Shown here piece by piece: positions 60,752 through 64,000 of a stretch of 64,000 nucleotides of DNA. The stretch lies in the NCBI RefSeq assembly GCF_003385235.1, contig NZ_PQIA01000007.1, positions 1-64,000 of the forward strand, written 5' to 3'. Position 1 is the first letter of the stretch. Every line of letters starts with the position of its first letter. A program made the translations under genes and the position numbers. Below the pieces are notes generated by a model that did not search any database, was not told where the DNA came from, and saw only the letters and a list, made by a program, of their open reading frames with translations. This DNA is from Amycolatopsis circi. Lineage in GTDB: Bacteria > Actinomycetota > Actinomycetes > Mycobacteriales > Pseudonocardiaceae.

Positions 60752-61989
60752 CTACCTCACCGCGCCGCAGCGCTCAGCCAGCGCCAACAGCGCCGAGGAC
60801 TTCTTGCCCGCCGACGCCGGGGCACGCCGGTACATCGACCGCATCACCTCGCGGACCATCGTGTTGTGCCGGACGACAGTCGGTGCCTTCGTCTCGGCCT
60901 CCAGCAATGCGTCGAGCGCTTCATCGTCCTTCGCGACCAGGCTCAACGCCCGCGCGAAGTCGATCAGGTGCGTGACTTGCCGCTCCGCTGGGAGATGATC
61001 GACGTTGACACGCGGCGCGGCCTCGATCACCTGCCCGACGTCGCCGAGATCCAGCGCCGCCGACAACCGGTGCAACTCGACGTTGGCCGGTCCGAACCCG
61101 GTCTGCCAGTAGTTCGCATCGACGCCGAGCTGGTCCGCCGCCTGCCCCGCGTGGCCGAGAAGGTCATTCGCCGTCGACCAGTCCTGATGCCGAGCCGCGG
61201 CCACCGCAGTCCGGAGGTAGAGCATCCCGTAGAGCTCAACGCCGCCGGATCGCCTTCGGCCATGCGCGGCAGCAGCCACTTGGCCGCGACGTCGCCCAGC
61301 TCCAGCGCGTCATCGAACCGGCCCACCGCCAGCAGCGCATGCGTCCCCGACCGCGCAGCCGACGCCAGCACCCGCGGATCATCCGCATCATCAGCGGCCT
61401 GCATCGCCCGCTCCGCCGCGATCCACGCGAGGTCAGCTTCACCGATCTTGCTCAACGTCGTCGCAGCGAGGTGGTGGACCCGGGCCGACACCGCCGCGCA
61501 CGCCCGCTTGTATGTCGCGTCGTCTGAGGAGGCGGCTTCCATTGCCTGGCTGGTTTTGATCAGACCAGGCAGCGCCGCGACAACGCGGCCGAGTTCGCCG
61601 TTCTGATAGCTGGACCAGACACCTTCCACCAACTGCGCAACCGGCGCGGGGTCGATGTACTCGGGCGACATCGCCGAGGAGAACAAGGTCCGGGAGAGCC
61701 GACGCGGAGCCATCAGCGCATCCCGGATCGCCGGGACATCGTCGTTCTTCTCCTGGTCCTCCAGCAAGACCGGTTCGCCGAGCAAGTCGCCCAGCGTCAC
61801 GCGCAGTGCTTGCGCGACCTCTGCCAGCACGTCCAACCGGCGTATATCCCGCTCGCCGCGCTCGATCTTGCTCAGCCAGTCCTCGGTGCGACCCACCAGG
61901 TCGGCAAGCACCGCCTGCGACAGCCCACGCCGCCGCCGGTAGAAGGCAATACGCTCCCCGATGCTGAGCTGATCACCCACACCTCGCAT
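60752..61989 (-). pseudogene. HTH regulator with a frameshift
   Basis: The N-terminal part (61989 to about 61240) encodes a helix-turn-helix (GERIAFYRRRRGLSQAVLADLVGRTEDWLSKIERG) and a TPR-like helical region. The frame then changes: the end of WLLPRMAEGDPAAL is followed in another frame by ELYGMLYLRTAVAAARHQ and a helical stretch to 60754. A single missing base near 61237 joins both parts into a normal protein of about 412 residues. It is either a pseudogene, a sequencing error or, less likely, programmed frameshifting. It precedes the flavoprotein gene, probably as its regulator. Confidence 0.7.
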
Positions 61990-62049: not shown

Positions 62050-63339
62050 TCATTCTTGCGGCGAGCTATTGATGTCCACTATCCAGCCTTTAGGGAACCT
62101 GACACCTCCCGGGGTCTTGAATTCTGCGCGGTCAAAGTGCGCCGCTCTTGTCGACTCAACTTCACTGAAATCTGCAACACTTTCGAATCTTGACTGATAG
62201 AAGTCTGCACGAAATCCAAATAGAGCCCCCATAAAGGAACTGTCGCCAATAAATACGGCTCGATCAAAATCTGCAAGACCGACAAATTCCGAACCTTCGA
62301 AATGTGAGGCGCGCGAGAAAGTAGCGTTACCAAAGGTTGCCGCGCTCGCGAAGCCTGCGCTATCAAAGTAAGCAACATCGGAGAAATGCGCATACATGAA
62401 TTCTGCGGCATCTTCAAAGCGAGCAAGCCGAAACGAAGTAGGCCCAGTGAATTTCACATTAGCGAAGTCAGCTGATTCCAAAAATCGTGAACTGCTGAAG
62501 CTTGCAGAGCCCACGAATGTAGATCCATGGAACGACGCGCGTGTCATTTCAGACGAACTAAAGTCGACATTGTAGAGAACCGTTCCACTGAGATCAATCT
62601 CAATATCCGACCAGAATTTCGGAGTAGAGATTCGAAGATGCGAAGTCAAAATATTCTGGATGATTATACGTTCCTGCAAATCACGATATTCAGTAACCTT
62701 TACCGAATCTCCGGTTGGCTCACCACCCGAGTAAGAAGAAAGTCGCAGGAAACCACATAGAATATTGGCGACCAACTGCCGATACTCAGGGTTGACCTCA
62801 GCTAAACCCTCAAGAGCGTAGAGTCCGGAAACTCGAACCTTGGGCTTTTCTGATCCGATGTGCTGTATTATTTGCGAGTAGCGACTGAACACCGAGTCCT
62901 CGCGCATCGTCGAAGACTCAAGAGAAGATATTTCAGCAGCTTGAAGAACCCTCTCCTGCGAGGCTTCACGGCGCCCTTGAGCGACCAACATAACCCAGCT
63001 TGCCGCGGATGCAATAACCACAGTTCCGATTGGAACGACAATTGAAATCCAAGCCACGTTGCTCAACTTGAAGTTCGGCACGGCAATCGTTACCAGCGCA
63101 AGCAGGCAGAGAGCTACGAGGCCGACGAGACTTATGGAAATACTCACACCTCGGCCAAGAACAAGATGCAGCGGCTTTCTCGTGCGAGCTGTTCCGAGCT
63201 CTCGCCGCACTTCGCGCGTAAGATTACGTGACATTGACGCGATTGACTTCGTGTCAGCGTCAGGAATAGCATCCCGCAAAAGTTCTTCGGTCAACTTCCT
63301 GAAACTGCCGGGCCCACTTAGACCTTTTGAGCTACTCAT
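62050..63339 (-). CDS. Membrane-bound pentapeptide-repeat protein
   Basis: The protein has 429 residues. After an N-terminal charged part (1-60) there are two transmembrane segments (about 66-88 and 95-118; ISLVGLVALCLLALVTIAV), a short helical region, then from about residue 245 a series of pentapeptide-like repeats (A/S-x-F-x-x pattern: SADFANVKFTGPTSFRLARFEDAAEF and so on) that form a right-handed beta-helix. The GC content is visibly lower, about half, compared with about 70% elsewhere, so it is foreign. It overlaps the upstream small gene by eight bases. Function is unknown. Confidence 0.85.
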   Translation of the reverse strand: MSSSKGLSGPGSFRKLTEELLRDAIPDADTKSIASMSRNLTREVRRELGTARTRKPLHLVLGRGVSISISLVGLVALCLLALVTIAVPNFKLSNVAWISIVVPIGTVVIASAASWVMLVAQGRREASQERVLQAAEISSLESSTMREDSVFSRYSQIIQHIGSEKPKVRVSGLYALEGLAEVNPEYRQLVANILCGFLRLSSYSGGEPTGDSVKVTEYRDLQERIIIQNILTSHLRISTPKFWSDIEIDLSGTVLYNVDFSSSEMTRASFHGSTFVGSASFSSSRFLESADFANVKFTGPTSFRLARFEDAAEFMYAHFSDVAYFDSAGFASAATFGNATFSRASHFEGSEFVGLADFDRAVFIGDSSFMGALFGFRADFYQSRFESVADFSEVESTRAAHFDRAEFKTPGGVRFPKGWIVDINSSPQE

Positions 63340-63631
63340 GCTTTGCCCCCTCCCAACGCTTGCGCCTCCGGCAATATGGGCATCTCATATCGGCTTGTTG
63401 CAGCAATAATCCAGCTGCAGCTACAGCCTGTTTAACGGCTTTTAAATTAGAAGCCGAAGGGGATACTGCATCAGTATCAAGAACCCGACTAACCAAGTTT
63501 TCCCAATGATCCTCAGCCAAACCCCAGTGGCCCCCATGCACCTTGACGAATAACTCAGCCAACCCCGGCGGTACTTCATACCCACTTCGGGCGTAAATCA
63601 AATTACGCAGTGGCGGAATTAGGTTACTCAT
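63332..63631 (-). CDS. Small zinc-knuckle-containing hypothetical protein
   Basis: The protein has 99 residues. It has a helical body (GLAELFVKVHGGHWGLAEDHWENLV) and a C-terminal CPYCRRRKRW zinc-knuckle-like motif. I do not recognise a family. The ATG at 63629-63631 is chosen; the frame has an upstream TTG. It overlaps both the upstream membrane protein gene and the pentapeptide gene by eight bases, so all three are one operon. Confidence 0.6.
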   Translation of the reverse strand: MSNLIPPLRNLIYARSGYEVPPGLAELFVKVHGGHWGLAEDHWENLVSRVLDTDAVSPSASNLKAVKQAVAAAGLLLQQADMRCPYCRRRKRWEGAKHE

Positions 63632-64000
63632 CTTCACTGCCGTCAAACAATTGGCCGACGGGCTTCTTTCTTCTGCCCGATATTGAAGCAGTAACGACGT
63701 GGCCAGCGACAGCTCCAGCTAACGCAGGCGCGGCCAGCCATCCCGCCACGGACAGGATCCACGCCGTTAGAGGACTGCTTGTCGATGCGGGCGAGGTGAT
63801 TGACAAACTGACATCGTACGCTTCACGCCATCCGATTACGAACCCGTTCAGCACGAAGAGTGCACCAAAGAATACAGCGAAGGGAATTCCCCGAAACAAG
63901 ATCCAATACTTGAAGGCCGTGTGACGCCCCCGGGAGCGCCACCTCGTGCGCATCCGCGCAAACAATGATCTTGGCGGTGGTGGTGGCAGATCCGGCGCAT
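63624..64000 (-). CDS. Membrane protein, DUF6313-like (partial, runs off the window)
   Basis: At least 113 residues are visible with two transmembrane segments (FRGIPFAVFFGALFVLNGFVIGW and TAWILSVAGWLAAPALAGAVAGHVV). The sequence is like actinobacterial DUF6313 proteins (recalled). The frame continues upstream to position 64000 with a Pro-rich stretch (APDLPPPPPRSLFARM), so the true start lies outside the window. It is first in the three-gene overlapping operon with the zinc-knuckle and pentapeptide proteins. Confidence 0.65.
   Translation of the reverse strand, partial: APDLPPPPPRSLFARMRTRWRSRGRHTAFKYWILFRGIPFAVFFGALFVLNGFVIGWREAYDVSLSITSPASTSSPLTAWILSVAGWLAAPALAGAVAGHVVTASISGRRKKPVGQLFDGSEDE

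Follow-up and report, generated by a model that had tools for sequence, protein, structure and literature searches.

The right-hand end of a 64,000-nucleotide stretch of Amycolatopsis circi DNA (contig NZ_PQIA01000007.1, positions 1 to 64,000; hereafter the window) carries three overlapping minus-strand genes, which encode a small membrane protein, a 99-residue protein with a CPYC motif and a membrane protein with pentapeptide repeats. Judged by profile matches, the first two proteins are the halves of a single Pfam family, DUF6313. DUF6313 is nearly always followed by a partner protein in which a fixed domain of about 40 residues precedes a lineage-specific module, and the A. circi trio sits in a genomic slot where several sister genomes have known defence genes. 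We propose, with about even confidence, that the trio represents a modular membrane hub-and-cargo system not described before, used here against phage or other invaders; this copy is probably anti-phage.

Two overlapping genes encode the halves of DUF6313

The trio runs in the order DUF6313-N (64046-63624), DUF6313-C (63631-63332) and pentapeptide protein (63339-62050), and neighbouring genes share 8 bases at both junctions. The ATG of the DUF6313-N gene lies 46 bases past the window end, and the sequence beyond position 64000, which a preliminary description of the window had suggested obtaining, completes that gene to 64046. The G+C content of the three genes is 0.577, 0.507 and 0.497, respectively, whereas the rest of the window, taken in 1-kb steps, ranges over 0.642-0.740; the low-G+C dip in the 121.6-kb contig is about as long as the trio and ends approximately at the start of the DUF6313-N gene. 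Scans for promoters and terminators gave results near chance. Coordinates and composition thus bear out the preliminary description of three overlapping minus-strand genes with 8-base overlaps and deviating G+C, and its three products, a small membrane protein, a 99-residue CPYC protein and a two-span pentapeptide protein, were all confirmed.

The Pfam profile of DUF6313 (PF19832) comprises 182 positions. The 140-residue DUF6313-N protein (63624..64000 within the window), in which a plain hydropathy scan found two hydrophobic stretches, matched profile positions 4-82 at E 1.9e-12 with 47.8 bits, above the curated cut-off of 25.8, which upholds its earlier label as DUF6313-like. The CPYC protein (99 residues from its ATG, 63332..63631) matched positions 115-182, the corresponding end of the profile, at E 0.011 with 15.9 bits, below the cut-off. 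When 150 related genomes were searched with the DUF6313 family and, separately, with the CPYC protein, both searches returned an identical set of 10 genomes, among them that of the window. Alignment with fused relatives confirmed the N-then-C order, with two histidines and a CxxC motif shared. The earlier treatment of the three proteins as mutually unrelated is therefore not supported, since two of them are halves of one family, which Pfam describes merely as one of unknown function. The Pfam profile spans both halves, whereas in the window they are two overlapping genes; that the family should form one polypeptide is our assumption from the profile rather than a stated Pfam requirement, and the window trio departs from it.

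Among 47 loci, the DUF6313 gene was fused in 25, split in 19 (the window and 18 others) and unresolved in 3. The Streptomyces nigrescens gene is fused, while its near relatives are split. The overlap between N and C genes is likewise 8 bases in another genus and several loci, and 4 bases in Streptomyces. A programmed frameshift fusing N and C is not favoured, because overlaps of 8 and of 4 bases place C in different frames relative to N; coupled genes are the simpler account.

The family occurs patchily, in 10 of 150 relatives and in 23 of 295 genomes of a second genus. Samples of the phylum and the class contained it in at least 1 of 396 and at least 4 of 394 genomes, lower bounds, since scoring was limited to 8 and 7 candidates in each genome, respectively. 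An alignment-based scan of genome contigs recovered 13 loci, and the window N protein alone, used as query against these contigs, found no relative. Against plasmids, the N protein matched four Streptomyces records and the C protein none; two named Streptomyces plasmids bear the trio as annotated genes for DUF6313, a hypothetical protein and a pentapeptide protein. The three-gene linkage thus recurs in other genomes, and the possibility raised earlier that the genes are not linked elsewhere no longer holds. The census of 47 leaves aside the duplicates L042 (=L052), L051 (=L032) and L054 (=L031), together with L039 and L118-L120; L039, L101 and L120 are truncated DUF6313 remnants.

A constant N-terminal domain marks the partner protein

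The protein encoded directly after DUF6313 starts with about 40 residues of shared pattern, L..LL..A.P and then a second helix. In the pentapeptide protein of the window (429 residues, 62050..63339), this DUF6313-associated domain occupies 63187..63321, with predicted helices at residues 10-24 and 30-51, and matches the domain profile at 4.1e-13, its own sequence being one of the profile rows. By profile, the domain lies beside DUF6313 in 43 of the 47 loci, or in 45 of 51 when L039 and L118-L120 are added, the match in L119 being at E 0.012. The loci that lack a match are L098, L099 and L100, plus the truncated L039, L101 and L120.

We then asked how exclusive this association is in 22 whole genomes, 16 with DUF6313 and 6 without, scoring in each genome the best 150 candidates from a first look that gave up to 309. 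Seventeen domain matches were found at E <= 1.3e-7, every one adjoining DUF6313; the next best match stood at 0.0037, and the six genomes without DUF6313 gave no match better than 0.05. Seven of the 17 strong matches came from genomes absent from the profile rows, though close relatives were rows. Furthermore, in a held-out test of the profile in which one group was removed at a time, groups A and T were recovered at E 4.5e-4 or better, and so was L044 of group W, a near relative of the window protein, at 2.8e-5.

Searches with 21 members against Pfam at E up to 1 found no convincing family for the domain, and its profile had no convincing relative among solved structures (best E 0.054). The AlphaFold2 model of the pentapeptide protein was poor overall (mean pLDDT 50.5) and was used just for the two N-terminal helices, where successive ten-residue blocks averaged 72, 78, 79 and then 61.

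The module following the domain varies between lineages

Cargo classes were counted over the 43 loci with the domain. Pentapeptide repeats follow it in 13 (the window, four genomes of the second genus and eight Streptomyces-type loci), four checked by Pfam and the rest by visible repeats. Nine carry membrane spans with a PBP_like_2 domain, of which three were Pfam-checked (2.2e-25, 6.9e-19 and 3.5e-25) and the others assigned by likeness. In 16, the partner consists of scarcely more than the domain itself (the end of L088 is unclear), and three hold unknown modules (L043, L045 and L052). The remaining cargos are an alpha/beta hydrolase in L044 (3.8e-07) and a LuxR-type helix-turn-helix (HTH) protein in L038 (1.6e-05), whose receiver match of 0.054 is too weak to count alone. 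At L099, pentapeptide repeats occupy the partner position without a detectable domain. A change of cargo is clear within one tight clade, since S. nigrescens L052 branches within the Streptomyces pentapeptide clade and yet carries another cargo.

Four loci merit separate description. On the S. nigrescens plasmid (L052:6692-7441), beside the fused DUF6313, a Streptomyces-type partner domain is joined to an unknown module that replaces the pentapeptide repeats. The third gene beside the split DUF6313 of L098 (L098:4069-4731) yields a protein with a complete ribosomal protein L19 domain (9.8e-48), and the N-terminus of this protein resembles the partner domain by eye, though the profile did not recover it. 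Divergent from the DUF6313 set in Streptosporangium (L043:2532-5888) and Nonomuraea (L045:2638-5874) stands a WD40 gene of about 1,100 codons, the product of which in L043 matches the PADLOC HEAT-ARM model at 5.6e-25.

These cargos bear on the main alternative to defence, namely that the system signals envelope or membrane stress, with DUF6313 and its partner sensing or organising the envelope, the cargo as input or output and the defence slot as a mere landing place, an explanation that we consider tentative and somewhat unlikely. Partners with a membrane-plus-PBP domain, placed outside, or a LuxR-type regulator, placed inside, would suit it, as would the 16 of 47 loci in which the partner is scarcely more than the domain and the conserved chromosomal neighbourhood in which the trio is found in four genomes of one genus. 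The low G+C and the patchy presence described above argue against it, as do the slot contents described below.

In the window protein, the module comprises two predicted transmembrane segments (residues 69-87 and 95-113 in a plain hydropathy scan; 63001..63135) and a pentapeptide-repeat region (residues 246-429; 62053..62604), and Pentapeptide_3 (PF13576) matched at 8.7e-35. A search of 40 genomes, that of the window among them, found relatives of this spans-and-repeats part in 28. Among the matches listed besides its own, one with an internal stop starts at residue 8, and the others start at residue 50 or later and so leave out most or all of the N-terminal domain. Membrane pentapeptide-repeat proteins of related actinobacteria thus resemble the window protein in spans, linker and repeats, but all save one of the matches listed lack most or all of its N-terminal domain.

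The commonness of this module is what could be said for chance neighbourhood, in which a degraded DUF6313 gene, split by mutation, would merely lie beside an ordinary membrane pentapeptide gene. We find this hardly credible: the same gene order and the 8-base N/C overlap recur in another genus, with 4-base overlaps in Streptomyces, and a domain that, in 22 genomes, is found only beside DUF6313 is a linkage that contradicts chance.

The preliminary description had also raised DNA mimicry by the pentapeptide part. MfpA and Qnr are DNA-mimic pentapeptide proteins with a strongly acidic repeat surface. The window repeats carry a net charge of only -11 in 184 residues, and those of three relatives -1 to -3; charge alone is not decisive, and mimicry is not favoured.

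The trio occupies a slot that holds defence genes in several sister genomes

The 8-kb neighbourhood of the trio was compared with 80 genomes of the genus. In the sister genome G012, both flanks are present (94% and 87%) and different DNA replaces the trio. The left boundary of the slot is an HTH gene (61027..61989, minus strand) that lies outside the trio and is common to sister genomes. The left flank was found in 22 genomes, of which ten were examined (L132-L141), plus two with the right flank alone (L142 and L143); sites were picked by flank DNA and not by content, and L142 was not scored. In all ten, the DNA that follows the HTH gene is unlike the trio, and its genes vary between sites. 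The slot in L132-L138 and L141 runs to a conserved right-hand stretch at a G+C of 0.50-0.55, and in L139 and L140 just a short core of that stretch is kept, near the start of the first gene.

The ten sister loci comprised four with strong defence matches, two with weak matches and four with none. The strong matches were SIR2_2 in L132 (1.3e-19), DarT (1.3e-11) with an ADP-ribosylglycohydrolase (1.3e-38) and a UvrD helicase in L134, RmrA (2.4e-136) with RmrT (4.1e-46) in L136, and DarT (1.7e-50) with DarG (5.8e-119) in L137; the weak ones were DzbB in L135 (6.1e-7) and ThsB_TIR in L139 (6.1e-6). At L143, where only the right anchor is present, we found a CBASS cyclase (1.3e-65) with a one-transmembrane effector (5.6e-10). 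The main genes in the ten slots run from the anchor towards the HTH gene, as the trio does, and in the opposite direction in L143. DarTG, RmrA/RmrT, SIR2/ThsA and CBASS, as modelled by PADLOC, therefore share or border the slot of the trio; their models do not match the trio itself.

Strong defence-gene matches in four of ten slots count against the stress-signalling alternative. They also lend partial support to the earlier suggestion that the trio is a defence, immunity or signalling device on an island, to which DarTG, RmrA/RmrT, SIR2 and DarT in four of ten sisters and the wider variable-cargo module lend weight; that four of ten occupants are unrecognisable detracts from it. The occupants of L133, L138, L140 and L141 may themselves be unrecognised defence genes.

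Two features of the slot edges were noted. Just past the window (L003:6093-6160, contig 64092-64159) lies a conserved stretch that measures about 60 bases and, in some genomes, more. It stands at or near the start of the first slot gene in the window contig and in L132-L141, whatever the occupant, and beyond the 3′ end of the CBASS genes in L143; it may serve as a common promoter or leader, or mark the edge where cassettes insert. As an RNA structure, it scored no better than shuffles (z -0.43). At the left edge, the HTH gene region of the window (60752-61989) contains an open reading frame (ORF) of 320 codons, against 442 in G012 by the longest reading, and seems to continue in another frame; the window copy is probably frameshifted.

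A candidate metal site and a possible mode of assembly

Conservation in the C half centres on four residues. In 45 sequences found by the profile, with the divergent L098, L102 and L119 left out, the two histidines were present in 45 and 42 and each cysteine in 44, the missing row ending early. In the window protein, these conserved putative ligands are His32 (63536-63538), His42 (63506-63508) and the CPYC motif at residues 84-87 (63371..63382). Two histidines and two cysteines form the ligand set of a zinc site, and DUF6313-C accordingly carries a putative C2H2 zinc site. The earlier term zinc-knuckle fits this arrangement of two histidines and CxxC as a putative metal site. The C-half profile found no convincing relative among solved structures (best E 0.036).

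The AlphaFold2 model made for a fused relative from Amycolatopsis has a mean pLDDT of 81.8 and consists of helices only, in line with a two-span N half and a helical C half. Residues 38-120 of the model form a span, a short re-entrant helix and a long span, and aligned with KcsA at Z 8.1 and rmsd 2.6 over 80 residues, Z values of such size being common with this tool, and with a Foldseek E of 5.3. Foldseek with the same model returned nothing at E <= 0.001 (best 2.8). The DUF6313-N profile matched only a glutamate-receptor chimera (E 0.12, about 20 residues) and small photosystem chains, and Pfam and profile searches gave no convincing match to channels. The model therefore hints at a channel-like fold of the N half; identification of the N half as a channel was not adopted, as the fold-level hint comes without a Foldseek or sequence match of weight.

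This fold bears on a toxin-antitoxin-like arrangement, in which DUF6313 or the pentapeptide protein would damage the membrane and the other would restrain it via the N-terminal domain. DarTG and RmrA/RmrT are toxin-antitoxin types. Their sharing of the slot, the tight gene overlaps of the trio and the modelled two-span re-entrant fold, weakly resembling channel pores, are compatible with such a pair. Nevertheless, we consider it unlikely, because a hub with many cargos is unlike a toxin with its dedicated antitoxin, and the channel likeness is a common arrangement lacking a convincing channel sequence match.

For the hub-and-cargo system that we favour, co-variation across loci bears on which half holds the partner. 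In 27 non-canonical loci, the partner domain followed the C half with a partial rank correlation of 0.707, against 0.10 for the N half, and the domain likely binds the C half, as far as sequence comparison can indicate. The C half adjoins the domain in the DNA; thus, shared exchange of that stretch could give the same signal. We envisage that the N half would anchor the hub in the membrane, while the C half, cytosolic and probably stiffened by the C2H2 site, would hold the fixed N-terminal domain of the partner. The module of the partner would thereby be placed at the membrane, ready to act once infection or stress alters the hub; in the window trio, this module may be a membrane-held, protein-binding effector or brake. 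The overlap of start and stop codons would coordinate the three subunits.

Observations that weigh against the proposed reading

Several results count against the proposed system or its defensive use. The trio proteins matched no PADLOC family at E up to 1. The tested ORFs of L133, L138, L140 and L141 had no Pfam or PADLOC match at E <= 0.001; moreover, the slot survey covered 10 of the 22 left-flank genomes, and its rate of PADLOC matches has no control from other sites. Some DUF6313 copies lie in a conserved chromosomal neighbourhood (four genomes, one genus), and a housekeeping role would therefore suit them better than a mobile defence role. In these genomes (L034-L037), the trio lies near what we take to be genes for a thiolase-like protein and a MeaB/ArgK-like GTPase, and vertical inheritance is therefore probable there.

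The constancy of the domain and the variability of the cargo also have exceptions. In L098, L099 and L100, no domain was detected in the third gene. The cargo classes mostly follow clades, and six changes, the minimum for seven classes, were counted on the DUF6313 tree, a quick tree with long branches and unsure deep joins. In the held-out test, the window sequence itself was matched at only E 0.1. Group B gave 5.6e-8 for one sequence, near 0.003 for two and 0.3 to 1.7 for three, with one type unlisted; group P gave 0.02 for one and 3.7 to 8.6 for three, the others unlisted; group S gave 2.8 and 8.9 for two, the others unlisted; and the single regulator-type sequence was unlisted. Kinship of the domain is therefore well established in some groups, while in others position and pattern are its basis. 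Finally, over all 43 aligned loci the domain tracked the N half (0.45) slightly better than the C half (0.33), and in the 16 canonical loci the two were about equal (C half 0.46, N half 0.42).

Relation to known systems

The closest design we found is that of System 4 (EACC1), which combines a short membrane 5′ component with a 3′ protein that joins a constant part to a highly diverse module, one form of which is membrane-plus-PBP (Kaur et al. 2020, PMC7159879). As there described, EACC1 and the trio share an actinobacterial origin, a short membrane 5′ component, a constant N-terminal part of the 3′ component and a variable C-terminal module. EACC1 itself has a single span, and its constant domain is of the caspase type or a cyclase, whereas the DUF6313 system has two spans and, as its constant part, a small helical domain that falls in no known enzyme family. 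The trio did not match PF19953 (EACC1) at E up to 1, and the pentapeptide protein, which matched only pentapeptide models at that threshold, showed no caspase or cyclase constant domain. By these sequence comparisons, the trio is not a member of the EACC1 system. The window's own genome holds two EACC1 (PF19953) matches elsewhere (G000:C242:7751-9964), a different membrane conflict system.

Effector-associated domains (EADs) are likewise small, mostly helical adaptors fused to varied modules; they are described as homotypic, with one copy per protein (PMC7159879, PMC8195603). The DUF6313 system differs from that description in that DUF6313-C has no detected similarity to the partner domain (hhalign probability 0.8%, small alignments), and the notion that the two are copies of one domain is not supported. 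No EAD was among the Pfam matches of the 21 partner-domain members at E up to 1, and remote kinship is possible. The name DUF6313 was not found in the literature searched, nor was any account of its module in the literature searched on pentapeptide proteins with defence or modular systems. This agrees with the preliminary statement that no known system combines these genes.

Implications

A more speculative possibility, to which we give only a slim chance, is that DUF6313 is a gated membrane pore or sensor hub with a metal-bound adaptor built into it, the domain of about 40 residues serving as a loading tag, such that an attack on the tagged bait would open the pore and kill the infected cell. 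Its cargos would then be, by lineage, a pentapeptide scaffold, a substrate-binding domain, a hydrolase or a regulator and, in one case, perhaps a copy of ribosomal protein L19, as bait or effector. If true, it would give bacteria an equivalent of the immune receptors that carry integrated decoys.

Irrespective of the mechanism, an uncharacterised Pfam family is now linked to a Pfam-less domain found only beside DUF6313 in 22 genomes, which makes the module searchable and testable as a unit. In this genus, the variable slot that adjoins the HTH gene may mark further defence genes, as four of ten occupants match nothing known. If the trio is a defence system, it would add a membrane hub-and-cargo design to the actinobacterial repertoire, and its cargos would point to proteins worth testing.

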